From Streptantibioticus silvisoli (GTDB lineage: Bacteria > Actinomycetota > Actinomycetes > Streptomycetales > Streptomycetaceae): a stretch of 64,000 nt of DNA. The stretch lies in the NCBI RefSeq assembly GCF_027947535.2, contig NZ_JAAGKO020000020.1:1-64000 (forward strand), written 5' to 3'. Both the position numbers and the translations under genes were made by a program. Numbering within the stretch: position 1 is the first letter of the stretch; every line of letters starts with the position of its first letter. Below the pieces are notes generated by a model. The model made no database searches. It saw only the letters and a list, made by a program, of their open reading frames with translations, and was not told the origin of the DNA. Shown here piece by piece: positions 7,770 to 29,132 of the stretch.

Positions 7770-8809
7770 GCTATCCCGTTCGCATCCCCGCTGACGTCGA
7801 CCGCGAGGACAAGGTGCTGGGCAACCTCACCGCCCGACAGCTCCTCATCCTCGTCGTCGCCGGAACCATCCTGTACGGCGGTTGGTCCGCCACCCGCGGC
7901 CTGGTTCCGCTGCCGGTCTTCGCCGCCGCCTCACTGCCCGTCGCCGTCGTCGCCGTGCTCCTGGCTGTCGGACAGCGCGACGGACTCCCGCTCGACCGTC
8001 TCGTTCTCGCCGCGCTGCGGCAACGGACGACGCCGCGCCAACGGGTCACCGCGCCGGAAGGCGTTCACCCGGCACCGGTCTGGCTGGCTGAGCGGGCCGT
8101 GGTCGAACCCGGAGCCGCCCCGGCCGCACCCGCGCCGCTCAGCCTGCCGGCCGAATCCGTGGGTGAGACCGGGGTGATCGACCTCGGCGACGACGGGTTG
8201 GCGGTGGTCGCGGTGTGCAGCACGGTGAACTTCGCCCTGCGCACCCAGGACGAACAAGACGCGCTCGTTGCCTGCTTCGGCCGCTACCTGCACTCCCTCA
8301 CCGCACCGGTCCAGATCCTCATCCGCGCCGAACGCCTCGACCTGTCCCGGCAGATCGCCGACCTGCGCACCCAGGCACCCGGCATGCCGCACCCGGCGCT
8401 GGAAACCGCCGCACGCGAACACGCCGACTACCTCGCCCAGCTGTCCGGAGGCACGGATCTCCTGCGGCGCCAGGTGCTGCTGATCCTACGCGAACCCGTT
8501 CAGCCGGCCGGACCCGTGGACGGTCTCGGCGGGGCATCCCCGCTGCACCGGCGCCGGCGCCGGCCCACCGGCCGGAGCGAATCCCTGCGCCGAGCCGCCG
8601 AAGCCCGTCTCGCACAGCGGCTCGCCGAGGCGGTCGACCTGCTCGGCCCCGCCGACGTCACCGTGACACCGCTCGACCCCGGGCAGGCCACGGCCGTGCT
8701 GGCCTCCGCCTGCAACCCCGACAGCCTGGTGCCGCTCTCCTCTGCCATGGCCGGTACCGACGATGTGATCACCGCGCAGGGCGGCTCCGATGACTGGGGG
8801 CAGCCGTGA
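7766..8809 (+). CDS. PrgI/VirB3-like conjugation protein
   Basis: 347-aa protein whose ATG overlaps the preceding stop and whose own stop overlaps the GTG of the VirB4-like gene. The N-terminus (MSYPVRIPADVDREDKVLGN) and two closely spaced hydrophobic helices at about residues 28-70 are typical of PrgI-family VirB3 equivalents in Gram-positive conjugation systems. A cytoplasmic domain of about 250 residues follows (NFALRTQDEQDALVACFGRY, helical LARE-rich segments), as in SCO6880-type actinobacterial proteins. It probably anchors or presents the VirB4 ATPase at the membrane. Confidence 0.8.
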   Translation: MSYPVRIPADVDREDKVLGNLTARQLLILVVAGTILYGGWSATRGLVPLPVFAAASLPVAVVAVLLAVGQRDGLPLDRLVLAALRQRTTPRQRVTAPEGVHPAPVWLAERAVVEPGAAPAAPAPLSLPAESVGETGVIDLGDDGLAVVAVCSTVNFALRTQDEQDALVACFGRYLHSLTAPVQILIRAERLDLSRQIADLRTQAPGMPHPALETAAREHADYLAQLSGGTDLLRRQVLLILREPVQPAGPVDGLGGASPLHRRRRRPTGRSESLRRAAEARLAQRLAEAVDLLGPADVTVTPLDPGQATAVLASACNPDSLVPLSSAMAGTDDVITAQGGSDDWGQP

Positions 8810-10683
8810 AGCGCAGGCCGACCCGCACCCCGCACAACCCGGCAGGCGCCTTCGCCCCCGATGCCCTCACCGTCGGCGCCAGGCACCTCGAAGTCGGTGC
8901 CGAACGAGTCGCCTCGTTCGCGGTGACCGGCTACCCCCGTGAGGTCAGCGCCGGGTGGTTGCAACCGCTGCTCACCTACCCGGGACGGGTGGACGTCGCC
9001 CTGCACGTCGAGCCGATCGACCCCGTCACGGCGGCCAATCGCCTGAAGCGGCAGCTGGCCAAGCTGGAGTCCGGGCGCCGGCACACCAGCGAGAAGGGCC
9101 GGCTGATCGACCCGCATGTAGAGGCCGCGACCGAGGACGCCTACGACCTGTCCGCCCGGGTCGCCCGCGGGGAGGGCAAGCTGTTCCGCGTCGGCCTCTA
9201 CCTCACCGTCCACGCCACCAGCGCCGACGACCTCACCGACGAAGTCGCCGCCGTCCGCTCTCTGGCCGCCAGCCTGCTACTGGACGCCAAGCCCACCACC
9301 TACCGGGCGCTCCAGGGCTGGGTGACGTGCCTGCCCATGGGCCTGGACCAGGTCCGCATGCGCCGCACCTTCGACACCGCCGCGCTCTCGGCCGCGTTCC
9401 CCTTCACCAGCCCCGACCTTCCCCCGGCCGACCCGACCTCGGTGGCCGCGCCGGACGGGGTGCTCTACGGCTACAACATCGGCTCGCAAGGGCTGGTGCA
9501 CTGGGACCGGTTCGCCCTGGACAACCACAACGCGGTCATCCTCGGCCGTTCCGGCGCCGGCAAGTCCTACCTCGTCAAGCTGGAACTTTTGCGGTCGCTG
9601 TATCGGGGCATCGAGAACTACGTCATCGACCCCGAGGACGAATACGCCCGCCTGGCTGGTGCGGTCGGCGGGACGTATGTCCGGCTCGGCGAACAGGGCG
9701 TGCGGCTCAACCCGTTCGACCTGCCGGTCCGTACCCGCCCGGACGGTCGGCGGACCGCACCGCCTGACGCCCTCGTTCGGCGTTCTCTTCATCTCCACAC
9801 CGTGCTCGGCGTGCTGCTCGGTGAGCTGGCCCCGGGAGACCGGGCCGTGCTGGACGAGGCGATCACCGCCACGTACGCCGGGGCCGGAATCACCGAGGAC
9901 CCGCGCACCTGGACGCGTCCGGCCCCCGTCCTCGAGGACCTCGCCACCGTCTTGCGGGCCTCGGCCAACAGGACGGCGAAGAACCTCGCCTCGCGGCTGC
10001 ACCCGTTCGTCCGCGGTGCGTTCTCCGGCCTGTTCGACGGCCCGACTACCACCCGGCCGTCCGGCCACCTCGTCGTCTTCTCCCTGCGCGACCTGCCCGA
10101 CGAACTCAAGCCCGTCGGCACCCTGCTGACCCTCGACGCGGTCTGGCAGCGCATCTCCGACACCGCCGACCGCAGGCCCCGCCTCGTCACCGTGGATGAG
10201 GCGTGGCTGCTGATGAAACAGCCGGCCGGCGCGGAGTTCCTGTTCCGCATGGCCAAGGCCAGCCGGAAACGCTGGGCCGGCCTGACCGTCGCCACCCAGG
10301 ACACCCCCGACGTCCTCGCCACCGACTTGGGAAAAGCCGTCGTCGCGAACGCCGCGACGCAGATCCTCTTGCGCCAGGCCCCGCAGGCCATCGCCGACAT
10401 CACCCGCGCGTTCAACCTCTCCGACGGCGAACGGCAATTCCTGCTGTCCGCCGAGCGCGGGCAGGGGCTGTTGTCCAGCGGGACGCACCGGGTGGCCTTT
10501 CAGGCGATCGCCTCGCCCACCGAACACCAGCTGGTCACGACGAATCCCGCCGAACTCGCGGCGCTCGGCGAAATCCCAAACGCCGGGTCCGACTCCTCGG
10601 CAGCTGAGCAGTACCCGCTGCCGGCCGAAGCACGGGAACTCCTCACCGACGACAACGGCGAATTCTTCCTCGACGCGGCCTGA
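8806..10683 (+). CDS. VirB4-like conjugation ATPase
   Basis: 625-aa HerA/FtsK-superfamily ATPase that should energise assembly and transport in the conjugation machine. Walker A is GRSGAGKS at residues 247-254, followed by YVIDPEDEYARLA, a hallmark of VirB4/TraC. Walker B is VTVDEAWLLM around residue 462, with a sensor-like TVATQDTPDVLATDLGKAV and an arginine-containing QILLRQAPQ segment downstream. The N-terminal domain (residues 1-230) is of the type that contacts VirB3. It starts at a GTG overlapping the PrgI-like stop. The gene appears intact, unlike its VirB6- and VirD4-type neighbours. Confidence 0.9.
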   Translation: MKRRPTRTPHNPAGAFAPDALTVGARHLEVGAERVASFAVTGYPREVSAGWLQPLLTYPGRVDVALHVEPIDPVTAANRLKRQLAKLESGRRHTSEKGRLIDPHVEAATEDAYDLSARVARGEGKLFRVGLYLTVHATSADDLTDEVAAVRSLAASLLLDAKPTTYRALQGWVTCLPMGLDQVRMRRTFDTAALSAAFPFTSPDLPPADPTSVAAPDGVLYGYNIGSQGLVHWDRFALDNHNAVILGRSGAGKSYLVKLELLRSLYRGIENYVIDPEDEYARLAGAVGGTYVRLGEQGVRLNPFDLPVRTRPDGRRTAPPDALVRRSLHLHTVLGVLLGELAPGDRAVLDEAITATYAGAGITEDPRTWTRPAPVLEDLATVLRASANRTAKNLASRLHPFVRGAFSGLFDGPTTTRPSGHLVVFSLRDLPDELKPVGTLLTLDAVWQRISDTADRRPRLVTVDEAWLLMKQPAGAEFLFRMAKASRKRWAGLTVATQDTPDVLATDLGKAVVANAATQILLRQAPQAIADITRAFNLSDGERQFLLSAERGQGLLSSGTHRVAFQAIASPTEHQLVTTNPAELAALGEIPNAGSDSSAAEQYPLPAEARELLTDDNGEFFLDAA

Positions 10684-10728: not shown

Positions 10729-11559
10729 ATGCCTTTTTCCGATCTGCCCCCGAACCGGCCCGCCCGGCTGCTCACTCAGAACCGTCGACTTCGCGCCATC
10801 GGTGTCTGGAATTGGACCCTGCCCGCATGGGCCGGCCGATTCGCCGACGGCCGCACGTACAACACCTGCCCGTCCGCCGGGGTGTGCCGGGACGCCTGTT
10901 ACGCCCGGCACAGCACGTACCGGTGGCCGAACGTTCTCGCCCGGCATCAGGCGAATCTCCGGTTCGTGCTGGACGACCTGCCGGGCTGGGAACGTGCCAT
11001 GAACACGGAACTCGACCTGCCGAAATTCCGGGGCCGATGGGTCCGCGTACACGATGCCGGTGACTTCTTCTCCGACGCGTACCTGGCTGCCTGGCTGCGG
11101 ATCGTGCGGGATCACCCCGGTACGTCGTTCTACGCGTACACGAAAGAAGTCAGGCGTTTCCGCGAGCTGGTGGAGGGCCGCGCGCCGGAGAATTTCCGCT
11201 GGGTCTACAGCTTCGGCGGCACGCAGGACGCGGGACTCGACCCGGACCGCGACCGCGTCGCCGACGTCTTCCCCGACGAAGCCGCGGCCACTGCGGCCGG
11301 CTGGCACTCCCAGGCGGCCAGTGACCTCCTGTCCGTCCTCGGTCCCCGCCGGGTCGCCGTCCCGGCAAACCGCATCCCCGCCGCGCTCGCCCAGCTCGGC
11401 GACCGCACGTTCCGCCAGTGGCAGGCCGAAGCCGACGAACAGCGGCGCGCCCGCCGCACGGGCCATCCGGTGTTCGGCGAGACGGCCACGGTGGTGCAGC
11501 TGCCGACGCGGTCCCGCGCGGACGGCGGTTCAGCCGGCGAGCAGCGAGCGGCGGCCTGA
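10729..11559 (+). CDS. GP88-like protein with Cys cluster
   Basis: 276-aa soluble protein. Near the N-terminus it carries NTCPSAGVCRDACYARHSTY, a CxxxxxCxxxC cluster that suggests metal or Fe-S binding. Aromatic-rich conserved blocks follow (FRGRWVRVHDAGDFFSDAYL, then GTSFYAYTKEVRRFRELV). These blocks resemble the phage/plasmid Gp88 family, whose function is not established to my knowledge. GAAGGG precedes the ATG. Its stop overlaps the start of the coupling-ATPase gene, so it belongs to the transfer operon, although it has no counterpart among canonical type IV secretion components. Confidence 0.6.
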   Translation: MPFSDLPPNRPARLLTQNRRLRAIGVWNWTLPAWAGRFADGRTYNTCPSAGVCRDACYARHSTYRWPNVLARHQANLRFVLDDLPGWERAMNTELDLPKFRGRWVRVHDAGDFFSDAYLAAWLRIVRDHPGTSFYAYTKEVRRFRELVEGRAPENFRWVYSFGGTQDAGLDPDRDRVADVFPDEAAATAAGWHSQAASDLLSVLGPRRVAVPANRIPAALAQLGDRTFRQWQAEADEQRRARRTGHPVFGETATVVQLPTRSRADGGSAGEQRAAA

Positions 11560-14053
11560 TGATCACACCCCTTCACCTCGCCTCCCTCACCGATCCCCGC
11601 TCACCCGTCAGCCGCTACCTGCGCGACCCGGGCGGCGCCGTGCACAGCCTGCTCGACGGTCTCGGCCACGCTGTGCTCGCATGGGGTCCGGTCGCCGGAC
11701 CGTCGCTCGCCGCCGTCGTCACCGGGCTGTTCGCCGCGCGGGCGTGGTGGCGCTCACGCTGCCGCCGCACCCTGGCCTCCGGGGCGCGGCTGGTCGAGAT
11801 CCTGCCGCCGCCAGCCGCCGACCCGAACGGCGCCGCCGCGCTGTGGTCGAACCTGGTCGGCGTGCTCCGCCCCGCCTGGCGCCGCCGCCTGACCGGCCAG
11901 CCGCATCTGGCGTGGGAGTACGTCTTCGACCGCGAGACCATCCGCATCCGCATCTGGGTCCCCGGCGTCATCCCGCCCGGCATGGTCGAACGCGCCATCG
12001 AAGCCGCCTGGCCCGGCGCCCACACCAAGACCACCGCCGCCCCACCCCTGACCGCCACACCCGACCCTGTTGCCGCAGGCGGCGAACTACGCCTCGCCCG
12101 CAGCGAGGCCCTTCCGATCCGCACCGACTTCCCCGCCGACCCGATCCGCGCGCTCCTCGGCGCGCCGGCCGGGCTCGGCGGCGGGGAGAAGGCGGTGGTC
12201 CAGGTGCTGGCCCGGCCCGTGACCGGGCGGCGCGTGACGTCGGCTCGCCGGGCAGCCCGGCACCTGCGCGTGGGCCATGCCGGTAGCCCCGCCGCCCGGC
12301 TGCTCGACCTGCTCGCCCCCGGCCACCACCGTTCCCCGCGCCGCCGCATCACCGCCACGGTGCTGGACCGCCAGACCACGTTGGAGAACGCCGCCGAGGA
12401 CCGCGTGATCATCGCCAAGCAGCGCGGCACGCCGTTCGAGACCCGCGTCCGCTACGCCGTCTTCACCACCACGACCCTGGATGCCGCCGCCCGGCAGGCT
12501 ACCGAGGACCACCTGCGCGGCCGGGCGCACGCGATCGCTTCGGCGTTCGCCGGGTTCACCGAGCACAACTACTACCGCCGCACCCGCCTGCGCCGCCCGC
12601 TGATCCATCTGGGGGAACGGCGGCTCGACAAGGGCGACTTGCTGTCCATCCCGGAACTGGCCGTGCTGGCTCATCTGCCGTGGGATGAGGCGATCCCCGC
12701 CCTGCAACGCGCTGGTGCCCGCGCCGTTCCGCCGCCGCCCGGCGTCGCCACCTGCGGCCCCGGTGTCCGGCCGATCGGCGTCACCGACACCGGCAACCCG
12801 CGTCCGGTGGGCCTGCGTATCCCCGACGCCCGGCACCACTTGCACATCCTCGGCGCCACCGGATCGGGCAAGTCCGAGCTGATGGCCCGGATGATCCTGG
12901 ACGACGCCGAAGCCGGGCGTGGCGTCGTGGTGGTCGATCCCAAGTCACCGACATCCTCATGCGGCTGCCCGAGGAGCTGGCCGGGAAGGTGACCCTGTTC
13001 GACGCCGACGACCGCACCCGCCCGCCGATCCTCAACCCCCTCGAAGGCGACGACCCGGCCCGGACCGTCGACAACCTCGTCTCGATCTTCTCCCGCATCT
13101 ACGCCTCGTCCTGGGGCCCACGTACCGACGACATCCTCCGCGCCGGCCTGCTCACCCTCCGCGCCATGCCCGGCACACCGGTGCTGACCGACCTGCCCAA
13201 GCTCCTGCTCAACCCCGCCTTCCGGCAACGCGCCCTCGAACACGTCCACGACGACGTCCTGCGCGGTTTCTGGACCTGGTACGAGCACCTGTCCGAACCC
13301 TCCCGCGCCCAGGCCACCGCCCCGCTGATGAACAAGATCCGCGGCCTGCTGCTGCGCCCGTTCGTCCGCTCCGCCATCGCGGGCGGCCCCTCCACCGTCG
13401 ACATGGACGACGTCCTCAACGGCGGGATCTGCATGGTCCGCATCGCCAAGGACGCCCTCGGCGCGGAAACCGCGCATCTCATCGGATCGATCATCGTCGC
13501 CCGCACCTGGCAGGCCGCCACCCGCCGCGCCAGCCTCCCGCAGAGCGAGCGGCGCGACGCCAGCCTCTACATCGACGAGGCCCACAACTTCCTCAACCTC
13601 CCGTACGCCATGGAGGACATGCTCGCCGAGGCCCGCGGCTACCGCCTGTCCATGACCCTCGCGCACCAGTACCTGCGCCAGCTGCCGCGCGAACTCGAAG
13701 AGGGCATCAGCGCCAACGCCCGCACCAAGGTCTTCTTCAACGCCTCACCCGAAGACGCCCGCCACCTCGCCCGGCACACCGAACCTCGGCTGACAGCGCA
13801 CGACCTGTCGAACCTCGACGCCTTCCACGTCGTCGTCCGCCCCGTCGTCAACGGTGCCGAAGCCCCGCCGTTCACCGCGCTGACCCAGCCCTTGCAGCCG
13901 GCCATCCCCGGCCGCGCCCGGCTGATCCGCACCGCGGCCCGCCAAAACGCCGCGCCCCGCACCGTCGGGGCGGTCCAGCTCGGCAAGGGCACCGGTTCCG
14001 CCGATCCCCGCCGCCGCCCCGCTACCCCCGACCTCGCGGAGGACGTCGCATGA
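11559..14053 (+). pseudogene. VirD4/TraB-type coupling ATPase, disrupted at Walker B near 12944
   Basis: Starts at ATG 11559, overlapping the GP88-like stop. A hydrophobic segment lies near residues 45-65 (GPSLAAVVTGLFAARAWW). Walker A GATGSGKS is at residues 432-439, followed by AGRGVVVVDPK at 12915-12944. There the frame goes wrong and stops at 12992. A second frame, open from before 12959 to 14053, continues as VTDILMRLPEELAGKVTLFD and carries later ATPase motifs (SLYIDEAHNFLNLPYAMEDM and RLSMTLAHQYLRQLP). The family motif is DPKGDLV-x-D-I-L, so a loss of about 10 nt (GDL plus one base) explains both frames. As read, the product lacks the Walker B region and cannot couple DNA to the channel. 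Confidence 0.8.
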
Positions 14054-16065: not shown

Positions 16066-16176
16066 TGCCGTCAGTTTCGTCGAAGGATGCTTCTATCTGC
16101 GGCGACGACTTTTGCGCGAGGAAGCGCCAGTGGCGGCAAGTCAGCTGTGCCCTGCTCCCTCGAAGAGGGGGGCGAC

Positions 16177-18015
16177 ATGCAGGTACAACGTGTGATCTTG
16201 GAGAACTTCCGTGGCGTGAAGAGCGGGACCGTTCTTCTGGATGGTCACTCCTTGCTGGTCGGCTCGAACAGCGTCGGCAAGTCGACTGTGTGTGAGGGGC
16301 TAGAGCTTGTACTCGGCCCTGAACGCATGTTCCGACGGCCCGTGGTCGACGAGTACGACTTCTACGGCGGGTGCTACCAGGAACGGGATGGCAAGCTGCC
16401 CGAAGTGAGGATCGAGGTCGTCCTCACCCACCTGTCCGACGCCGCCGAGCGGCGATTCGGCGGCCATCTGCGCCGCTGGTCGACGCGGACGAGCGAATTC
16501 CTCGACTTGGTCCCCGACGCGGTCGAAGATGCCGAGACCGGCGAATGGTGCCTGCCGGTGGTCTTCCTCGGCCGCTACGACCCCCAGGAAGACGACTTCA
16601 TCGGGGGCACCTTCTTCGCACACCCCGAGAGCGTCCCGGATGGTCTTGGCGGGGAGGAGAGCGGGCTCGGTGCAGGGCTGAAGTCCTTCACCCGGGAGGA
16701 CAAGCGGAACTGTGGATTCCTCTATCTGCGGCCCAACCGAACCGGCAGCAGGGCGCTCACATTCCAGCGCGGCTCGCTACTGGACACGATCGTGCGGCTC
16801 GAGGCGGAGTTGGCGGGCCCGCTGTGGGAGAAGGCACTTCGTGACCTGGAGCAAGTCGTCGTCACCGCAGCCGAATCCGGATTCGGGAAGATCCGTACCG
16901 AGATACGCGACCGTGTCGACCGCTTCGTCAGCCTAGGCGACACCGCCGACCCGGTCGATCTAAGGGTGTCTGAACTGACCCGTGAACACTTGCGTGAGGT
17001 ACTGCGCCTGTTCATTGCTACCCAACCCGGACCGCACGCTGTCCCGTTCAACCGGCTAAGCACCGGATCGCTGAACCTGCTGGTGTTCGCCCTGCTCACG
17101 TACATCGCCGAACTCAAGGGCGATAAATCGGTGATCTTCGCGATGGAGGAGCCGGAGATCGCACTCCCGCCGCACGCGCAACGCCGTCTCATCGACTTCG
17201 TGGTCAAACGCATGGGCCAGGTGATCGTCACCTCCCATTCACCGTACGTGATCGAGAAGTTCGAGCCCTCCCGCATCGTCGTGATCAGCCGCGACCCAGA
17301 GGGCGTACTCAGCAGCAACCGTGTCATCCTGCCTGACGACTTCAAGCTGAAGAAGTACCGCGACAACCGCCGGCAGTTCGCCGAGGCTGTCCTGGGCCGT
17401 GCAGTACTTGTGGTGGAGGGCGCTGCGGAAGCGGCCCTGTTCCCGGCCGTCTCGGACGTGCTGGAAGCAGATCCTTCCGTCCCCGGCTACGTCCCCCTGG
17501 ACCTTGCAGGCGTCACGATCTTCGACGCTCAGAACGACGTCTCTGTGCCCCTCTTCGCCCCCGTATTCAAGGGGCTGGGCAAGCCGGTCTATGGAATCCA
17601 CGACCAGCCCGACAAGCCACTCGACGTGAAGACCGCCGCCAAGACCGCCGACTTCACGCACTACACAGTGCTGAACTATAAAAGCGTTGAGAAGCTGCTG
17701 GTCACTGAGGTACCGGTCGAGGCCCAGCGTCGCTTCCTGGCCGCTGCGGCCCAGCGCACGGACTACCCCTCCGGATGCGCCCGCCCCGACCCGTCTGCCA
17801 CGGACCCGGCGGTGAACACCCTCACATATGACGTGTTGTGGGCCCGCAAGGGTGACGGCTATGCCGCGCTGCTCATCGCCGAATGCCAGGGCCGCAGCCA
17901 ACTCCCTGACGTACTGGCCGATCTTCTTCTCCAGATCGACCGCGACCTGGGGACCTTCGCGAGCGGGAGCGAGACCAGCAGCACGGCTCACTCGGACGAG
18001 ACCGATGAAAATTGA
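16177..18015 (+). CDS. gajA: GajA-like OLD-family ATPase/TOPRIM nuclease (Gabija)
   Basis: 612-aa protein from the ATG at 16177 (AGGGGGG just upstream). The N-terminal SMC/ABC-type ATPase has Walker A GSNSVGKST at residues 30-38, a signature-like RLSTGSLNLLVFALL, Walker B KSVIFAMEEPEIALPP and an H-loop VIVTSHSPYVIEKF. The C-terminal half is a TOPRIM domain with the acidic motif VLVVEGAAEAALF (Glu about residue 414) and a later HDQPDKP acidic motif. This architecture, followed directly by a UvrD-like helicase gene, matches the Gabija anti-phage system, in which GajA is a nucleotide-sensing DNA-nicking enzyme. The downstream gene overlaps by 11 nt. A stand-alone class 2 OLD system is the alternative. 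Confidence 0.82.
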   Translation: MQVQRVILENFRGVKSGTVLLDGHSLLVGSNSVGKSTVCEGLELVLGPERMFRRPVVDEYDFYGGCYQERDGKLPEVRIEVVLTHLSDAAERRFGGHLRRWSTRTSEFLDLVPDAVEDAETGEWCLPVVFLGRYDPQEDDFIGGTFFAHPESVPDGLGGEESGLGAGLKSFTREDKRNCGFLYLRPNRTGSRALTFQRGSLLDTIVRLEAELAGPLWEKALRDLEQVVVTAAESGFGKIRTEIRDRVDRFVSLGDTADPVDLRVSELTREHLREVLRLFIATQPGPHAVPFNRLSTGSLNLLVFALLTYIAELKGDKSVIFAMEEPEIALPPHAQRRLIDFVVKRMGQVIVTSHSPYVIEKFEPSRIVVISRDPEGVLSSNRVILPDDFKLKKYRDNRRQFAEAVLGRAVLVVEGAAEAALFPAVSDVLEADPSVPGYVPLDLAGVTIFDAQNDVSVPLFAPVFKGLGKPVYGIHDQPDKPLDVKTAAKTADFTHYTVLNYKSVEKLLVTEVPVEAQRRFLAAAAQRTDYPSGCARPDPSATDPAVNTLTYDVLWARKGDGYAALLIAECQGRSQLPDVLADLLLQIDRDLGTFASGSETSSTAHSDETDEN

Positions 18016-19708
18016 CCCGGTCCGGCAAAAGATCCTCGATGCTCCCGGCCATCTCCTGATCGTCGGAGGCCCGGGCTGTGGCAAGACCACCATCGCTCTT
18101 CTCAAGGCCCAGGCGAGGCTGGGCGCCCTGGAAGCTGAACAGCGTGTACTTTTCATGAGCTTCTCGCGCGCCGCCGTACGCCAGATCACGGACCGGATGT
18201 CCGGAGTAATGGACCGGGCCAGCCACCAGCGCCTGGAAGTACGCACCTTTCACGCCTTCTTCCTCGACGTCGTACGCAGCCACGGACAACTGCTCACCGG
18301 TCGGCCGTCTTCTTTCATCCCGCCCGACCGCGAACGGCAGATCCAGGCCGACTTCGACGGCGACTGGCAGACCGAGCGTCGGCGCCTCGCGACCGAGGAG
18401 AGCCGCTACGTCTTCGACCTTCTCGCTGGCACAACGGCGAGCCTTTTGGAACGCAGCGCCGCCCTGCGGGCCCTTTACAGCAGCATTTACCCACTGATCG
18501 TCGTCGACGAGTTCCAGGACACCAACACCGACCAGTGGCGCGTGATCAAAGCTCTCAGCGGCGCATCCACCGTCATCTGCCTCGCCGACCCTGACCAACG
18601 AATATTCGACCACCTGGACGGTGTCGACGAGCACCGCCTCGATGATGCCGTGGCGTACCTCGCGCCCACGCCATTCGACTTGTCCAAGGACAACCACCGT
18701 AGCCCCGGCGGCGGACTACTCGACTACGCCAACGCCGTACTGAACAACACCCCCCATTCCGAGTCGGGCAACGTCCGCACCTGGACCTATACCCCGGGTT
18801 ACGGTGTTCCCTGGCAGGCTCGTGTCCACAAGGGCGTCATCGCCATGCAGGATTACCTCACCACCCAATTGGGGCGCACACCGGCCATCGCCGTCCTCGC
18901 GAGTGTCAACTCTCTTCTGGGCTCGGTCTCCGAGACCCTGGCCTCTGACACCGTCACCGGCGGCATCACACTTCCTGCCGTCGACCACGCTCTGCAATGG
19001 GATCCCGAACTGACCGCAGCAGCCGGCTACGTCGTGGCGTCGATCATGGAATGGCCTGGGCTGGCTCGCGTGGAGGCCGTCGCCCGGACCGTGCACTCCC
19101 TTGCGGACTTCTACCGGGTCAAGCTGACCGGTGGCGCAGCCAGCGCACGCGGCAAAATCAAAGCCATGGAGAACGGGCTCGTCGCATTCACATCCGGCAA
19201 GACGATCCGTTCCACGACTGTCAAGGCCGTGATCGCTGTCTACGACGCTGGGATTTCCTACATCGGGCAACCGGTCGCCGACTGGCAGACCGCTCGTGAC
19301 CGCCTCCATGGCTCCAGCGAACTCGGAGAAGTTCTCAAGCACGCGCGCCTGTTGCGTCTACTCAACGCTACTGATGCGCTGGCCTGGGGCCTGTCTGATG
19401 TCTGGGACGGCCAGTCCACCTACAGAGACGCGTCAGCCACGGTCCGCGCCGTCCTTGCCGCCGAATCCCTCAATGCAGCCCAGCAAGCAGCAGAACCCGT
19501 CTCCCTGATGAGCATGCACCGCTCCAAAGGCAAGGAATTTGACGGTGTCGTCGTCGTTGAAGGACCGTATACAGGTGCTCTGCTCGACCGCAGTTGGGAT
19601 CCGGAACGTCTCCGCGCCCAGCGACGCCTCCTACGCGTGGCCATCACGCGAGCACGCTCTGTGGTTCTTTTCGTCCGCCCCCAAGGCAGCCAACGGCTCA
19701 CAGGCTGA
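18005..19708 (+). CDS. gajB: GajB-like UvrD/PcrA-family helicase (Gabija)
   Basis: 567-aa SF1 helicase. Motif I is GGPGCGKTT at residues 21-29. Motif Ia is followed by FMSFSRAAVRQI, motif II is LIVVDEFQDTN near residue 167, and motif III is CLADPDQRIF. A motif V-like MHRSKGKEFDGVVVVEGPY and motif VI RRLLRVAITRAR are near the C-terminus. The ATG at 18005 lies inside the end of the gajA-like gene, so the two are translationally coupled. In Gabija, GajB senses single-stranded DNA or ends and assists GajA. Its length is somewhat greater than the roughly 500 aa of the founding GajB, within normal family variation. Confidence 0.82.
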   Translation: MKIDPVRQKILDAPGHLLIVGGPGCGKTTIALLKAQARLGALEAEQRVLFMSFSRAAVRQITDRMSGVMDRASHQRLEVRTFHAFFLDVVRSHGQLLTGRPSSFIPPDRERQIQADFDGDWQTERRRLATEESRYVFDLLAGTTASLLERSAALRALYSSIYPLIVVDEFQDTNTDQWRVIKALSGASTVICLADPDQRIFDHLDGVDEHRLDDAVAYLAPTPFDLSKDNHRSPGGGLLDYANAVLNNTPHSESGNVRTWTYTPGYGVPWQARVHKGVIAMQDYLTTQLGRTPAIAVLASVNSLLGSVSETLASDTVTGGITLPAVDHALQWDPELTAAAGYVVASIMEWPGLARVEAVARTVHSLADFYRVKLTGGAASARGKIKAMENGLVAFTSGKTIRSTTVKAVIAVYDAGISYIGQPVADWQTARDRLHGSSELGEVLKHARLLRLLNATDALAWGLSDVWDGQSTYRDASATVRAVLAAESLNAAQQAAEPVSLMSMHRSKGKEFDGVVVVEGPYTGALLDRSWDPERLRAQRRLLRVAITRARSVVLFVRPQGSQRLTG

Positions 19709-22203: not shown

Positions 22204-22333
22204 GAACGCGGCTCCTTTCAGGGTGGGTGCGCCGGCTGAGCGGCGGGGAGTGGGATGCGGAGCGGCAGCGGTCCCGGCCGGGTGTGACCGCGCCCGTTGA
22301 TGGGGCGGTCCGCGCGGGAGAGGGCTCCGGCTG

Positions 22334-22407
22334 TGGTTGCGGCGGGACTCGAACCCGCGACACGACGCTTATAAGTGCGCCTGCTCTGCCAACTGAGCTA
22401 CGCAACC
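22334..22407 (-). tRNA. tRNA with 8-nt anticodon loop, probable Ile (UAU)
   Basis: Read leftward, the acceptor arm GGTTGCG/CGCAACC is a perfect 7-bp helix. The D arm GCTC/GAGC and T arm GCGGG/CCCGC around TTCGAGT are also perfect. The anticodon stem GGCGC/GCGTC (one G-U) closes the loop ACTTATAA, which is 8 nt instead of 7. Placing T33 at the first T gives anticodon UAU, which would read the rare AUA Ile codon. The discriminator is A and CCA is not encoded. All other arms are canonical, so the gene does not look decayed. It lies inside the accessory block, not at an element end. Confidence 0.85.
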
Positions 22408-23340: not shown

Positions 23341-24522
23341 TCAGCGCCGGGTCTGGAGCATGAGGCGACGGTGGGCGGTCGACTTCACGTCGTCGTCCGT
23401 GCCCTCGATCAGCCGCAGGCCGCGGGCGCCGAGCGGGTCGCCCTTCAGGCCGGACGCTGCGCTGGGCCGGATGGGCGCGAGGTGGTCGAGGTAGTCGGTG
23501 ACGGCACGCTCAGCGGCGTAGGCCGTGCGCCCGACGCGTTCGCTCTCTTTCGCGAAGACCCCGCGCAGTTGCTCCTTGCGGGTGGCCGCGGTCTTCAGCA
23601 CCCGTGCGGTGGCCGTCGGGTCGACCGGCCACAGGCCGTCCACGAGCTTGGTGAACTCGTCGACCGCCAGGTCCGTCCGGGCGAGCACGGTTTCTTCGCC
23701 GGCCCACTGGTCGAAGTACCGCACGGACAGCCCGAGCGTCCGCTGCGCCTCGCGCACCTTGTCCGTGGCGTTGCGGGTATGCCGCACCGACCAGCTGGTG
23801 ACCGCGTCGCGCAGGGCGAACCGTTCCGTGTTCCCGCAGACCGGCCGCCACGGAGTGACCACGGCCCGGAACGACGAGGACCCGTCGTGCGAGTTCACGG
23901 CAACGATGAACGGCAGGATCTCGTCGTTGATCCCCGCCGCGTCCACCGTGACGTTCTCCGGCAGGCGCAGGGAGACGAAGGTCTTCTTGCCGTCCCGCAA
24001 CGCGCCGGTCGACTCCCAGGTCACGTTGAAGTCGTTCACCAACTCCTGAAGGAACTCGAACGCCTCGCGGTTCTGGATCACCTGGTAGTTCTCGCCGACC
24101 ACGCCCAGCGGGGCGCCGGTGTCGGAGCGGACGGTGTGCCGCTGGCCCGGGTGCACGCGGGTCCCGTCGCCCCAGGGGTACAGGGCGGGCACGGTCTCGA
24201 CCTGGTAGTCGATGCCGCCGAGGTCCAGGACGGTGTCGATGTCCTGGACCCCGCCGGGTATCACTTGGCCGAGGCCGTGCCAGGCAGGCACGGCCGAGTA
24301 CAGGGCCGCGCTGCCCAAAGACATGTCGAGACCGTGCTGCGGTTGGCCCGCGGCGGTCAGGATCTCCCCGGTGTCCCAGCCGCTCAGGACCCGGTACCGG
24401 CCGTCCGGCAGCCGCTCCACCGTGCCGTCGGTGATCCGCTGCTGGAGTTCGGCCGCCCAGTTCCGGGCGGCCTCGACCTGTCCGGCCCGCTCCCGGGCGA
24501 ACGCGTCGTTCACGTCGATCAT
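23341..24522 (-). CDS. DUF932 / phage-plasmid-like protein
   Basis: 393-aa protein with the typical DUF932 layout: SAVPAWHGLGQVIP near the N-terminus, DYQVETVPALYPWGDGTRVH, then GVVGENYQVIQNREAFEFLQ, and the later VNSHDGSSSFRAVVTPWRPV followed by CGNT. DUF932 proteins are widespread on phages and conjugative plasmids and have been discussed as anti-restriction-like or establishment factors; the mechanism is uncertain. One copy of the 36-bp bipartite element ends 66 nt upstream in promoter orientation, so this gene may be expressed from it. Confidence 0.85.
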   Translation of the reverse strand: MIDVNDAFARERAGQVEAARNWAAELQQRITDGTVERLPDGRYRVLSGWDTGEILTAAGQPQHGLDMSLGSAALYSAVPAWHGLGQVIPGGVQDIDTVLDLGGIDYQVETVPALYPWGDGTRVHPGQRHTVRSDTGAPLGVVGENYQVIQNREAFEFLQELVNDFNVTWESTGALRDGKKTFVSLRLPENVTVDAAGINDEILPFIVAVNSHDGSSSFRAVVTPWRPVCGNTERFALRDAVTSWSVRHTRNATDKVREAQRTLGLSVRYFDQWAGEETVLARTDLAVDEFTKLVDGLWPVDPTATARVLKTAATRKEQLRGVFAKESERVGRTAYAAERAVTDYLDHLAPIRPSAASGLKGDPLGARGLRLIEGTDDDVKSTAHRRLMLQTRR

Positions 24523-24587: not shown

Positions 24588-24623
24588 CTAAATACGGAAG
24601 TCGAAGACGCCCGATTCCCGATC
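24588..24623 (-). repeat. Bipartite 36-bp element, copy A (promoter-like)
   Basis: On the + strand CTAAATACGG, 14 nt, CGATTCCCGATC. Read leftward this is GATCGGGAATCG-N14-CCGTATTTAG, that is GGGAAT with an 18-nt gap to GTA, very close to the Streptomyces sigma-R type consensus GGAAT-N18-GTT. It lies 66 nt before the DUF932-like start. Three other copies have exactly the same spacing. Confidence 0.7.
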
Positions 24624-24643
24624 ACCGGGGAAAGGGCAGGATT

Positions 24644-25000
24644 TCAGCTGTCGCCGGTGGTCGGCTTGGAGCCGCCGAAGACACGCACCGTGTGCTCCTG
24701 GTCTTCATCAGGGAGGTGAAACGGAAGTTCATCGATCCCGTCGCGCACGGCGCGGGCGAGCCGGTGCCAGCCGTCAATGAGGAGAACAAGTCCTCCGACA
24801 TCGGCAATCCGAACGAGAATGAGAGGACGCCGGAGGTCGACGGAGTCAATGTGGCCGTCATCAAGTGCGATGATCCCGAGGTGCTTGGACCAGTCGCCGA
24901 CGCCCAGTTTCCCGGCCGGGAGGTCGCGGGCGAATTCCTGAGCCTTGGTCACGTTCCATCGGTAGGACAGGAACTGGAAATATTCGCTGTTGTCGTTCAT
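24644..25000 (-). CDS. Hypothetical protein, ParB/Srx-like possibility
   Basis: 118-aa soluble protein with AAGGGGAG directly before its ATG. It has VTKAQEFARDLPAGKLGVGD, then DDGHIDSVDLRRPLILVRIA, GGLVLLIDGWHRLARAVRDG and ELPFHL. The order of strands and the DGWHRL-type motif recall the ParB/sulfiredoxin nuclease-like fold (GxHR motif), as in small plasmid-borne ParB-like proteins. The match is by pattern only. Confidence 0.55.
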   Translation of the reverse strand: MNDNSEYFQFLSYRWNVTKAQEFARDLPAGKLGVGDWSKHLGIIALDDGHIDSVDLRRPLILVRIADVGGLVLLIDGWHRLARAVRDGIDELPFHLPDEDQEHTVRVFGGSKPTTGDS

Positions 25001-25030
25001 CTCCCCTTCCCCGGGTGTGTGGTGAGCGGG

Positions 25031-25360
25031 TCAGCTCAGCCGGAGGGAGTTCCCGAACACCGATGCCTTCTGCTCGGGTGTCCACCGGCGTGGGGCATCG
25101 GCGCTCTCCTCCCCGGCCCCAGCAGTCCGCGCCGTGGGGTCGGACGGGCACCGGGACTCATCCGGAAACCGGGTGATGCAGTCCGTGCCGGCGATCCGGA
25201 ACTCCGCGTCGAGTCCGTCGCTCCGCACCACCCACGGGCGTGAGTCGTTATGCGACCGCGGCGCGTACCGCACCGGCAGGTTCGTCCGGGCTTCCCGGAT
25301 CTCCGCCCCCACTTGTTGTGCCTTCAGCAATCGCTGTGTCCTGCTCCTGCTCCTGCTCAT
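25031..25360 (-). CDS. Small hypothetical protein
   Basis: 109-aa basic, polar protein from the ATG at 25360, which has AAGGAG about 6 nt upstream; the longer frame is not supported. It has an Arg/Ser-rich N-terminus (SRSRSRTQRLLKAQQVGAEI), the segment TNLPVRYAPRSHNDSRPWVV, and a polar C-terminus. No known family. It precedes the ParB-like gene by 30 nt and shares its orientation. Confidence 0.5.
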   Translation of the reverse strand: MSRSRSRTQRLLKAQQVGAEIREARTNLPVRYAPRSHNDSRPWVVRSDGLDAEFRIAGTDCITRFPDESRCPSDPTARTAGAGEESADAPRRWTPEQKASVFGNSLRLS

Positions 25361-25589
25361 GGTCTTCTCCTTCCTGCGAGGTTGCGATGAGTTCATGTAT
25401 TCGGGGCAGCGACGGCGCGCGCTCCCACGGTCCCGCGCCACTCCTGGAGAGCAGCGAGCGCATGATCCTCGAACTGAGTCGATAGGTTCTCGTCGTCGAG
25501 GGCCGCGCATCCTCCAACGCCTTCGCGGCTGACGGGAGGTGACAGCACCCTGGCACGCCCAGATCAGTCACCTCTTGAATCGTCGACAT
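25248..25589 (-). CDS. Doubtful small gene
   Basis: A 113-aa frame from an ATG at 25589 preceded by GAGGAAGTG. The first 40 or so residues (STIQEVTDLGVPGCCHLPSA) look plausible, but the rest is low-complexity (EDHEQEQEQDTA) and overlaps the better-supported gene at 25031-25360 by 113 nt in another frame. It may be a short real gene with a wrong 3' end, or nothing. It is listed because the gap it fills would otherwise be about 310 bp. Confidence 0.2.
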   Translation of the reverse strand: MSTIQEVTDLGVPGCCHLPSAAKALEDARPSTTRTYRLSSRIMRSLLSRSGAGPWERAPSLPRIHELIATSQEGEDHEQEQEQDTAIAEGTTSGGGDPGSPDEPAGAVRAAVA

Positions 25590-25672
25590 ATCGCGCACTT
25601 CCTCTCCTTGGGAGCCCGCGCCCCCTCCAACGGGGGAGAAACGAGGGGGGCGCGGGAGCTGTCGGTCCGCCG

Positions 25673-26392
25673 CTACATCGGGCCGTGGGGGCATCCGGAC
25701 GAGTGCCGGGAGTCTTCTGCGAACTCGGCGTGATATTCGCCGTCGTCTGACGGAAACAGGGAGGTTCCATTGACCAAATGTGCGCCAAGGTCGGCGAGTT
25801 GTTGAACCTCAACCATCGGAACCATGGCGCGACACTCGGGGCACGGCCCGAGGAGGTAGAACGGCTCGTCGCCGTACCTCGGGTCCAGACAGGAGAACGT
25901 GTACGAGGACGGATCGCCGCCCGGATCGTTCACGGTGAGCGTGAGCGGCCCGACAGGACCGAGGCCCCCGCCCCAACGCTGGTCAATACGCACGTCCCAG
26001 AAGCCGATGCCGAGAATCGCGGCGAGTCGCAGGGCCGCACGCTTCGCGTACCCGGCCAGATGTGCGGGGATCTGCGAGACGTCACAGCGCCTCTGTGCGA
26101 GCGTGTACGCCTCGCGCGCGTGATCCGCGATGCTCTCGGCGTGCCCGACCGCGTCCAGCGGGTCGGAATTGACCACGACCCACTTCCCGGCAGAGCTGGA
26201 CCACTGGACGCGGCGCACCCACTCTCCGACATCCGGCGATCTCCGGATTCCCGGGGCGCACTCTGCGGATTGGTCCCGGTAGTCGCGCCACTCCTCAAGA
26301 CGTGGGCACTCGTCCCGCGCATGAAGTTCGTTCAGCGCGGAGGCAACCGCGTGCCAAAGTTCTTCCGTCGACAGTTCACGTGTGGCGATCAC
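25673..26392 (-). CDS. Hypothetical protein with C-terminal Cys motif
   Basis: 239-aa protein from a GTG at 26392, chosen because GAGGAG precedes it; the frame above it is an Arg-rich shadow. It has a helical N-terminal half (STEELWHAVASALNELHARD), a basic segment around RRCDVSQIPAHLAGYAKRAA, and then LGPCPECRAMVPMVEVQQLA, a CxxC pair that with the C-terminal SSGCPHGPM could bind zinc. No family recognised. It is 89 nt from the next upstream gene and in the same orientation. Confidence 0.6.
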   Translation of the reverse strand: MIATRELSTEELWHAVASALNELHARDECPRLEEWRDYRDQSAECAPGIRRSPDVGEWVRRVQWSSSAGKWVVVNSDPLDAVGHAESIADHAREAYTLAQRRCDVSQIPAHLAGYAKRAALRLAAILGIGFWDVRIDQRWGGGLGPVGPLTLTVNDPGGDPSSYTFSCLDPRYGDEPFYLLGPCPECRAMVPMVEVQQLADLGAHLVNGTSLFPSDDGEYHAEFAEDSRHSSGCPHGPM

Positions 26393-26481
26393 GTCACTCC
26401 TCAGATGGGTTGATTGCTGCCCGGTGCAGCCGCAGGGGCGTTCGACCATTCGCCCCTGCGGCTGCGAAGCGTTGGAGCGGA

Positions 26482-26859
26482 TCAGCGAGCGCCGACCAGC
26501 GCAAGGACGCTTTGGAGATTGCTGTTTCCGTACTCCGCGACCACCCAAGCGATGATCGCGGCAACCAGCGCACCAACCCCGGAAACGGCCAACCGCCGGA
26601 ACGCGGACAGCATCCGGGCGCGGTCCGCGTAGAACGCGACGTCGATAACGACTGTGCAGCCGAACAGGGAAGGCGTGAACTCCCGGTGGATGCGACCGAG
26701 TTTGGGATGTGACCGGGTGCAGTGGATCTTGTGCCCGTCCTCGCACGGTGTGATCTTCTCGTAACGCCACGCCTTTCCGGCCGACGTTCCGGCCGACACG
26801 TGGATGGTGGTACCCGGATCTATGGTTCGCCCGGATTCGATGTGCATGAGCCTCTGCAC
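26482..26859 (-). CDS. Small membrane-anchored protein
   Basis: 125-aa protein from a GTG at 26859 (AAGGGGAG 5 nt upstream); an ATG five codons later is possible. The N-terminal 85 residues contain three Cys (ITPCEDGHKIHCTRSHPKLG and SLFGCTVVIDVAF). A single hydrophobic helix follows near the C-terminus (VSGVGALVAAIIAWVVAEYG). Unknown function. The bipartite element copy B lies about 135 nt upstream in promoter orientation. Confidence 0.55.
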   Translation of the reverse strand: MQRLMHIESGRTIDPGTTIHVSAGTSAGKAWRYEKITPCEDGHKIHCTRSHPKLGRIHREFTPSLFGCTVVIDVAFYADRARMLSAFRRLAVSGVGALVAAIIAWVVAEYGNSNLQSVLALVGAR

Positions 26860-26988
26860 GATCTCTCCCCTTATGGATCGCGTGCCTGTAACGGACGGGA
26901 GCCGCACCCCAATTGGAGTGCGGCTCCCATGCGACGCGGCAGGCTGATGTCGTTTCAGCGGGGCGAGCGGTACACGGAGAAATCCGTG

Positions 26989-27123
26989 TCACTCAAATAC
27001 GGATCGCAGGAATGCCCAAATCCCGATCTTGAGTAGAATTTTTCCAAGATCCTTCAAGGCAGAATGTGCGATGCGTACGACCAACTCCCGGGTGCGCTCC
27101 AAGCGCGACCCGGGGTCCGTCAT
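26989..27123 (-). CDS. Candidate 44-aa peptide gene between repeat copies
   Basis: ATG at 27123 directly follows the GTATTTAG half of repeat copy C, and the frame ends inside repeat copy B. The product is polar at the N-terminus (TDPGSRLERTRELVVRIAHS) and amphipathic to hydrophobic afterwards (LKDLGKILLKIGIWAFLRS). If real it would be leaderless or nearly so. A short membrane-active peptide is possible, but chance cannot be excluded. Confidence 0.3.
   Translation of the reverse strand: MTDPGSRLERTRELVVRIAHSALKDLGKILLKIGIWAFLRSVFE
26993..27028 (-). repeat. Bipartite 36-bp element, copy B (promoter-like)
   Basis: On the + strand TCAAATACGG, 14 nt, CAAATCCCGATC. Leftward: GATCGGGATTTG-N14-CCGTATTTGA, giving GGGATT-N18-GTA. 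It is flanked by ACTCAA and TTGAGT, an extra inverted repeat not shared by the other copies. It lies upstream of the membrane-protein gene starting at 26859. Confidence 0.65.
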
Positions 27124-27159
27124 CTAAATACGGACGGCCAACCGCCCCGATTCCCGATC
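27124..27159 (-). repeat. Bipartite 36-bp element, copy C (promoter-like)
   Basis: On the + strand CTAAATACGG, 14 nt, CGATTCCCGATC; both halves are identical to copy A while the 14-nt centre differs, which points to selection on the two halves. It starts 131 nt from copy B and 111 nt from copy D, all in the same orientation. Confidence 0.7.
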
Positions 27160-27234
27160 ATGAAAGAAGTTTTTTCAGCGATCTTTCCGGAGGCTGGCAG
27201 GCGCACTGCCCGGCAGGCGCGAAAGGTGACACGC

Positions 27235-27270
27235 CTAAATACGGCCCACGTGGCATCCCAATTACCGATC
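27235..27270 (-). repeat. Bipartite 36-bp element, copy D (promoter-like)
   Basis: On the + strand CTAAATACGG, 14 nt, CAATTACCGATC. Leftward: GATCGGTAATTG-N14-CCGTATTTAG. It follows directly after the terminator-like hairpin of the sigma-like gene, which fits a fresh promoter for the sequence to its left. Confidence 0.65.
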
Positions 27271-27288
27271 TTGAATCGGGAAACGACT

Positions 27289-27324
27289 GTGCCCCGACGG
27301 TCCCTTCGGGGACCTCCGGGGCAC
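27289..27324 (-). terminator. Hairpin terminator of the sigma-like gene
   Basis: GTGCCCCG at 27289-27296 pairs perfectly with CGGGGCAC at 27317-27324. The stem continues inward (GGTCCC with GGGACC) around a TTCG-type loop. It sits 8 nt after the stop at 27333 in the reading direction. No long T-tract follows, as is common in Streptomyces. Confidence 0.7.
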
Positions 27325-27332
27325 AGAGTGAG

Positions 27333-28133
27333 TCAGGAGCCGTCGGCGGGGGTCGCTGCACCCCGGTACACCAGGTCATCCCGCACGGCGTCGAGGGACG
27401 CACTCAACGCCCGCCACTCCCGCTTCGCGGCATCCTTGGTCCGCTGAACCTTGGACGACGAGTTGCGCGGACCCCCGTGGATGCTCTGCGCCGTCTCGCC
27501 GATGACCCCTGCCCGCCCCAGGTCATCAGCGCGACCCGCAACGTCCAGCATCACCCGGAGCGTGGGGTACTCCGCCCCGTCCGCCCACGCGGACTTGAAG
27601 ATCACTTCGCTGTTGCAGGACAGGTACGGCGCCACCGCGAGCGTGGGCAACTTGTCCGCGTGCGGAACGCCCCGCATCTGCTGGGCGCCCTGCGTGGCGT
27701 CCAACTCGTCGGGCTGGACGTCCAGTCGGTACCTGTTGCGGGCGGCGGCATCCCGAACCGCCCAATACTGGAGGGTCTTACGGCTCACGATGATCACGTC
27801 ACCATCCCGGCGAACGTACTGCCATGCCGACGGCTCCCGGGTCGCCACGGTGAGGGCGGAGACGTCCGACGAACCGGAGACTTCCCGAAGACGCTTAGCG
27901 AACATGAGCACCGCGTCTTGCGTGACGTCGTCGCTGACGTCGTCCGTGCCGTACAGGGCAACGCCGCCCCGCACGGCGGTGGCGCTCCCGTTCATCCGCT
28001 TCCGCGACCGGGTGGAGTCGACCGCGCGGCAGTACCCGCGCGCTATCCGCTGAATCTCGGTGAAGTCCTGCGAGGTGATGAGTTTCATGTCGTCCGCCGT
28101 AACTTCCGTCCGGCGACTGGCGTTCTCGTTCAC
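27333..28133 (-). CDS. Sigma-factor-like protein (putative)
   Basis: 266-aa soluble protein from a GTG at 28133 with AAGGAA upstream. The segment TDDVSDDVTQDAVLMFAKRL (about residues 63-82) resembles the region 2.2 signature of sigma-70/ECF factors (D-D-x-x-D-x-x-Q-x-x-F). The C-terminal LGRAGVIGETAQSIHGGPRN followed by SSSKVQRTKDAAKREWRAL resembles a region 4 helix-turn-helix. The two are separated by a longer and less conserved middle than in typical ECF factors. The four promoter-like 36-bp elements lie just downstream and at 24.6 kb, so it may be their cognate sigma factor. An unrelated DNA-binding protein is the alternative. Confidence 0.45.
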   Translation of the reverse strand: MNENASRRTEVTADDMKLITSQDFTEIQRIARGYCRAVDSTRSRKRMNGSATAVRGGVALYGTDDVSDDVTQDAVLMFAKRLREVSGSSDVSALTVATREPSAWQYVRRDGDVIIVSRKTLQYWAVRDAAARNRYRLDVQPDELDATQGAQQMRGVPHADKLPTLAVAPYLSCNSEVIFKSAWADGAEYPTLRVMLDVAGRADDLGRAGVIGETAQSIHGGPRNSSSKVQRTKDAAKREWRALSASLDAVRDDLVYRGAATPADGS

Positions 28134-28670: not shown

Positions 28671-29132
28671 GTGTCCCAGAGCGATGAAATTGGGAGAAGT
28701 GCGAACCGCGATCCGCATCCGGAGGCAGGCGCCAACGAGTGCCGCTATTTGCAGAGCATTCATGACCTTCGCCATCTGCTCAACGGCGAGTGGGTGTGGG
28801 ATGTCTTCGTCTCGCTGCGGTCGGGGCCTTTGCAATATACCGGAATCCTAGCCGCGATACGGGAACGGTCTCTGGAAAACGGCTGGCCTGGGCGGAACCA
28901 CACCTATCTTCAGGACAGCACTCTGAATCGCACCCTTCGCCGCCTGGAAGAAGCCGAACTCGTGGATCGCTTGCGGGAGGATAGTTTCCCGTACCGAACC
29001 ACGTACTGGCTGACGCCGCCGGCGGAACAGTTGCTGGCCGCTGCTATGCCCTTCGTCGAGTGGGCGGAGGAGCACTCGGGGCTGCTGGACCGTACACGGC
29101 GGCGGCGAGGCGGTGGCCGTACGGGACTCTGA
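28671..29132 (+). CDS. Winged-helix transcriptional regulator, HxlR/PadR-like
   Basis: 153-aa protein from a GTG at 28671 with GGAGGAGGT about 8 nt upstream. The core LLNGEWVWDVFVSLRSGPLQ followed by YTGILAAIRERSLENG and NRTLRRLEEAELVDRLREDS is the typical HxlR winged helix: GxW at the start, recognition helix, then the 'L..LE..GLV.R' wing. TTYWLTPPAEQLLAAAMPFV completes the family pattern. It is transcribed away from the sigma-like gene and may control the adjacent accessory genes or itself. Confidence 0.75.
   Translation: MSQSDEIGRSANRDPHPEAGANECRYLQSIHDLRHLLNGEWVWDVFVSLRSGPLQYTGILAAIRERSLENGWPGRNHTYLQDSTLNRTLRRLEEAELVDRLREDSFPYRTTYWLTPPAEQLLAAAMPFVEWAEEHSGLLDRTRRRRGGGRTGL

Follow-up and report, generated by a model that had tools for sequence, protein, structure and literature searches.

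The window analysed here, 64,000 nucleotides from the actinomycete Streptantibioticus silvisoli (contig NZ_JAAGKO020000020.1, positions 1 to 64,000), carries four copies of a two-part, promoter-like element, three of them in a tandem array just behind the gene of a 266-aa protein that we call sigma-like and the fourth ahead of a DUF932 gene (Table 1). We propose that these copies are probably the cognate promoters of a highly diverged sigma factor, akin to the extracytoplasmic function (ECF) group and encoded by a mobile element with type IV secretion system (T4SS) and Tad-type genes. In support, the sites follow the gene from genome to genome, lie on its strand and diverge in parallel with it.

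An oriented two-part element confined to one mobile element

The original prediction, made from the letters of the window, had four copies facing leftward, and all four (A to D) are where it put them. Measured against GATCGGGAATCG-N14-CCGTATTTAG, A and C have no mismatch, D has two and B four; a scan of the window allowing up to 3 mismatches returns A, C and D, with no match in 100 dinucleotide shuffles, and a looser pattern allowing up to 2 finds these four copies and no others in the 8.7 Mb genome (reversed control pattern, 0). The constant 14-nt gap and the single orientation hold in relatives too, and the idea of a promoter-like element of fixed spacing, recognized through both of its halves, is supported. 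Other parts of the prediction need amending: the GGGAAT half is present in the window but is not the conserved form, as relatives carry GGTAAT, GGTATT or GGGATT and other clades GACGGT or GACGAT, and the centres, described as unrelated for A and C, are mostly so in the window's clade, whereas classes II-IV of the site (see below) show partial conservation of the gap. Conservation also extends beyond the 10-mer into ARGTGAGAGC.

The sites follow the sigma-like gene

Among 394 Streptomycetaceae genomes, the site pattern (at most 1 mismatch) occurs in 8, in 1 to 5 copies on a single contig per genome (reversed control, 0), and the sigma-like gene in 7 (alignment search, E<=4.3e-148), all 7 being among the 8 with the site; put as a test, 7/7 carriers have the site against 1/387 non-carriers (Fisher p=2.9e-14). 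The gene stands directly ahead of the array in all 7 genomes, and its product is 57-70% identical in the other 6. Carrier genomes in which the sites were counted have only 4 (G000), 4 (G394) and 5 (G395), all on the element's contig. The motif is not widespread outside promoter context, its sole match in the family without a sigma-like gene being a lone site in G331 (locus L030), and a protein match in G350 (E=7e-4) sits among unrelated genes and is spurious. When the window and nine other stretches were scanned with a weight matrix, 26 matches came out, the lone G331 site included, in one orientation per locus; in the control, for which the window was shuffled 10 times by single bases, 1 match reached the threshold used. 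For most elements, the spacing between tandem copies is about 90-130 or 217 nt.

The same association appears in a second family (represented by L053), where the gene occurs in 21 of 250 genomes and the site in 21, 20 of them shared: 20/21 carriers have the site against 1/229 non-carriers (Fisher p=2.6e-27), a test that is not fully independent because the pattern was derived from loci found via the protein. The exceptions here are G549, where one 1-mismatch site stands without the gene, and G463, whose gene is accompanied only by a degenerate site, seen in its counterpart L070 (matched by coordinates). Where a genome carries the gene twice, as do G460 and G512, each copy has its own array.

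Altogether the protein is encoded at 46 loci, all with open frames, in Streptomyces, Streptantibioticus, Yinghuangia, Actinomadura, Microbispora, Nonomuraea, Frankia and others. A -10-type site (<=2 mismatches) lies within about 1 kb downstream of the gene at 41 of the 46, some of these sites being doubtful, that of L072 above all. Class matrices, which were trained on these same sites, detect 88 array sites at 42 of the 46 loci, 88/88 on the gene's strand (reversed control, 0), and none in L049, L061, L072 and L077; contig ends cut L049 and L061, and two of the loci without a hit stop 279 and 119 nt past the match. Outside the arrays, 16/16 sites are again on the gene's strand, three of them weak and one (L043 +1200) just past the array limit. 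The link between the sites and the sigma-like protein therefore holds up, as the sites track the gene's presence, share its direction and lie upstream of genes of the element. Two relatives are embedded in contigs 8.3 and 9.6 Mb long, and one further record is a chromosome; no protein relative was found in 72,556 plasmid records, in 50,697 phage records or in IMG/VR (pattern and tblastn). One exact pattern match in IMG/VR (L001) is without the ARGTGA extension and was judged by eye to be chance.

The upstream half and a protein segment diverge together

The sites fall into classes that share the -10-like half CCGTATTTAAGTGAG and differ in a clade-specific upstream half (GGTAWT or GACGRT), which reads GATCGGTAWTCGGG in class I (mostly Streptomycetaceae), GTTCGACGATCGGG in class II (two Streptomyces), GGACGGTCGGG in class III (mostly Streptosporangiaceae) and GCCGACGGTTCGG in class IV (Actinomadura), with the register of the two halves unchanged throughout. 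In the protein, residues 219-233, a putative recognition segment (GGPRNSSSKVQRTKD in the window, GGAYGSRRNVIRVRD typical of class III), are 84% identical within class I and 81% within class III but 41% between them, the largest drop of ten segments. Helix 118-141 keeps 74% identity between classes, paralleling the constant -10 half; segments 89-117 (38%) and 162-201 (40%) also diverge between classes and are variable within them too. As for an ECF sigma factor, there are cognate -35/-10 sites with a fixed 16-17 nt spacer, diverging with the helix that would read the -35.

Folding of the array units

Folding was compared with shuffles for class I and III units taken from relatives. Class III units followed by a next site fold better than shuffles (mean z -2.32, n=28), the last units of class I arrays have a mean z of -1.45 (n=10), and a helix of at least 8 pairs with the first nucleotides is found in 11/43 followed units against 6.6% in controls. 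For an alignment of 23 class III units (4 of the 26 listed were dropped and one, from L067, added), the RNAalifold consensus is weak, at -1.19 kcal/mol. A structure drawn by eye on the same units has 84.3% of cells paired against 82.4% in shuffles, a value that 0/500 reach, and slid versions have 33-46%; its covariation score is 0.220 against 0.197 (3/500 reach it), and two-sided changed pairs are not above shuffles (178/500). Covariation in class III is, in sum, modest and mixed. Rfam gave no match at the gathering score in 4 loci, and in the part of the window searched returned the tRNA and one sub-threshold match only.

A sigma factor or another DNA-binding protein

The AlphaFold model of the full protein has two helical domains and a low-confidence linker (pLDDT 72, pTM 0.51), and the N-terminal domain modelled alone scores higher (pLDDT 84, pTM 0.77). 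By eye, GTDDVSDDVTQDAVLMFAKRL resembles region 2.1-2.2 and the C-terminus a helix-turn-helix. On VIA realignment of the full model, sigma chains take 9 of the 10 leading rows (Z 5.8-6.4), headed by the M. tuberculosis ECF sigma-H (Z 6.4); for the N-terminal domain, every row from 2 to 10 is a sigma region 2 chain (Z 4.5-5.4). Some of the chains are labelled sigma from their chain letter. These fold matches are suggestive but weak.

Several results weigh against our proposal. The VIA Z values are all below 8, a range where the tool warns that chance is possible, and row 1 for the N-terminal domain is Sld7; Foldseek gives no match at E<=0.001 for the full model or the N-terminal domain. Pfam, searched with 37 members up to E<=10, returns no sigma family and neither Sigma70_r2 nor Sigma70_r4, NCBIfam and PHROGs return none for the window protein, a PDB sequence search gives no match, and hhalign finds no signal (probability 0.1%) against 14 host ECF-like proteins, those of 30 candidate ECF loci that were kept after a motif filter. 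Because the sequence profiles are empty and the fold scores weak, sigma identity rests mainly on the genetic evidence. Further points against the proposal are these: in the flanks of the loci examined, none of the sites precedes the sigma-like gene, whereas the plasmid-borne SigN of Bacillus subtilis activates its own gene (PMC6751061); Frankia L077 has the gene and no recognized site; class I units with a next site behind them show no better folding than shuffled sequences (mean z -0.23, n=9); and conservation that reaches the presumed transcript start exceeds what a promoter needs. Shared ancestry alone could be a partial source of the divergence pattern.

The protein might instead be a site-specific DNA-binding regulator of another kind, with the two halves as paired binding sites and the host polymerase transcribing. 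Any cognate DNA-binding protein would fit the co-occurrence, the adjacency and the parallel divergence, and neither the sequence nor the Foldseek searches identify a sigma factor, but the sites are asymmetric and strictly oriented, their constant -10-like half lies at usual promoter distances, no sigma70-type promoter consensus was found beside the sites in the window region, and sigma chains head the structural comparison; we consider this explanation rather unlikely. A role in recombination, replication or transfer (iterons, oriT-like or partition sites) would suit tandem arrays with hairpins between the copies on a mobile element, yet it is improbable given that the sites keep one orientation (88/88 and 16/16), occur as single copies before genes and tRNA genes kilobases away, and vary in copy number without symmetry.

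Less credible still are two readings that we rejected. SigR recognizes the consensus GGAAT-N18-GTT, and a host SigR regulon would not predict four sites only. Copies A and C resemble this consensus, with GTA in place of GTT, as the original prediction had pointed out, but the resemblance falls on a variable position (relatives have GGTAWT or GACGRT), the GGAAT core is not conserved, the -10 side reads GTAT, not GTT, and the tight motif occurs at four places in the host genome, confined to the element and tracking its gene, which makes the use of these promoters by SigR or another host ECF sigma very improbable. The repeats could also be taken to encode the C-terminal ends of a family of small proteins (IGNR...VFR-stop), since one frame crosses the site and terminates at the conserved TGA and the peptides of classes II-IV look similar by eye. 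That frame, however, is no more open than another (medians 37 vs 35 codons) and at 9/85 sites has a stop within 42 nt upstream, results on which we dismissed this idea; besides, tRNA genes follow some sites, and GTA TTT, a pair of rare codons in such GC-rich hosts, stays fixed, which makes coding ends a very improbable explanation.

Putative target genes and the host element

The sites stand ahead of genes or tRNA genes at usual promoter distances. Downstream of them are DUF932 genes (window site A; L045), the 118-aa gene (L034), the family of the gene at 25031-25510 (L035, L037) and tRNA-Ile(TAT) (L029 and L026/L035). DUF932 relatives occur near the sigma-like gene in 28/46 loci, all on its strand. 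In related elements, tRNA-Ile(TAT) lies at 15845-15920 in L026 and 8395-8468 in L029, and is also present in L035, L038 and L043. At the hairpin between gene and array the terminator scan called none, because a T run is absent; hairpins stand at the equivalent place, by eye, in the 8 loci inspected.

Table 1. Sites and genes of the array region (window coordinates)
Feature	Position	Strand	Basis or remark
Sigma-like protein gene, 266 aa (name coined here)	27333..28133	-	Orthologues, AlphaFold models, structure comparison
Strong hairpin between gene and array	27287..27326	-	Sequence; putative terminator
Site D	27235..27270	-	First array copy past sigma-like gene; upstream half GATCGGTAATTG, downstream half CCGTATTTAG
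Site C	27124..27159	-	Second array copy
Site B	26993..27028	-	Third array copy; ~85 nt ahead of the gene frame at 26482-26907
141-aa protein gene downstream of array	26482..26907	-	Homologues, same place, in L027, L028, L029
118-aa protein gene	24644..25000	-	Relative in L034 with its own site 44 nt upstream
Site A	24588..24623	-	Single copy; downstream edge 65 nt from DUF932 gene ATG
DUF932 gene downstream of site A	23341..24522	-	Pfam PF06067, E=1.4e-57
tRNA gene	22333..22407	-	Anticodon TAT by eye; left unresolved by ARAGORN

A winged-helix protein is encoded divergently from the sigma-like gene (28671-29132, +) and is conserved in L025, L027, L028, L029 and at 6/46 loci; it is a candidate switch for that gene. 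Many sites in L034-L079 have a further conserved box (AAAGAATCTTGAA) or a short inverted repeat 10-35 nt upstream, which may be an UP element, an activator site or the 3' hairpin of an RNA.

The window encodes a P-loop_TraG / TraC_F_IV (VirB4-like) protein at 8806-10683 and a coupling protein (TraG-D_C) at 12959-14053, as expected of an integrative and conjugative element of T4SS type, and also Tad-type pilus proteins including a TadA-like ATPase. Within the examined flanks of the 46 loci, a TadA-like protein is found at 8, a 943-aa protein at 17, a coupling protein at 9 and a VirB4-like protein at 4, and the T4SS/Tad association therefore applies to part of the family. Among the T4SS genes lies a GP88-family protein (10729-11559, +; PF17338, E=1.8e-57), and a Gabija-type defence pair (16087-19708, +; PADLOC, GajA E=1.6e-229, GajB E=2.2e-190) separates these genes from the array region.

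Model and implications

We hypothesize that the N-terminal domain reads and opens the constant -10 half (CGTATT) and that the C-terminal helix-turn-helix reads the clade-specific -35 half (GGTAWT here, GACGRT elsewhere) over a fixed 17-nt spacer. Once the protein is made, RNA polymerase would initiate both at the tandem array that directly follows its gene and at isolated, scattered sites before DUF932, tRNA-Ile and small genes on the same strand. The expected transcript starts lie near the conserved GTGAGAGC; as these starts fold into hairpins in Streptosporangiaceae, the array probably yields short structured RNAs, which might act as regulators or buffers of the element's transfer programme. 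The broader claim, that this is a new sigma-factor family confined to T4SS/Tad elements of Actinomycetes, with a tandem promoter array in which each promoter heads a short structured RNA, and with a -35 specificity that switched with the recognition helix while the -10 was kept, forming a natural series of orthogonal sigma-promoter pairs, is one to which we give an even chance. No description of the protein or the array was found in the part of the literature that our library covers. If the proposal is correct, many actinomycete mobile elements run their own transcription via a private sigma factor that standard annotation has missed, promoter pairs that are orthogonal from the outset are available for use in Streptomyces, since recognition segment and -35 have changed together, and the arrays indicate a so far unstudied class of small RNAs carried by mobile elements.

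Comparison with known systems

In phage phiC31, a motif repeated through the early region marks the early promoters. This Streptomyces phage (L007) likewise has a conserved motif upstream of several genes of one mobile element; its sequence differs (CGGGTTGCCGACTNCCTTAC), and phiC31 contains no site of the present family. The Streptomyces ECF sigma factors sigma-E and SigR share with our system a two-half promoter, a CGT-type -10 and a two-domain protein, and the 17-nt gap fits the 16-17 bp spacer of S. coelicolor sigma-E (PMC6767563); here, in contrast, the -35 differs, the protein has no family match and the sites are confined to the element in the genome checked. Actinobacterial T4SS integrative elements have VirB4-like and coupling-protein genes in common with the window, whereas the accessible part of their description mentions no sigma factor of the element, and Tad-type pilus genes and a promoter array are extra here (PMC3218068); the text of PMC9513070 contains neither 'sigma' nor 'Tad'. 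The nearest functional parallel is SigN of the Bacillus subtilis plasmid pBS32, for which, in the portion of the account available, no tandem array of short units is described (PMC6751061). Sigma activity is proven for SigN only, and the likeness drawn here is one of function: (i), both proteins are encoded by a mobile element; (ii), both are weakly ECF-like; (iii), both are associated with a private promoter consensus that stands on many units of the element itself (PMC6751061).

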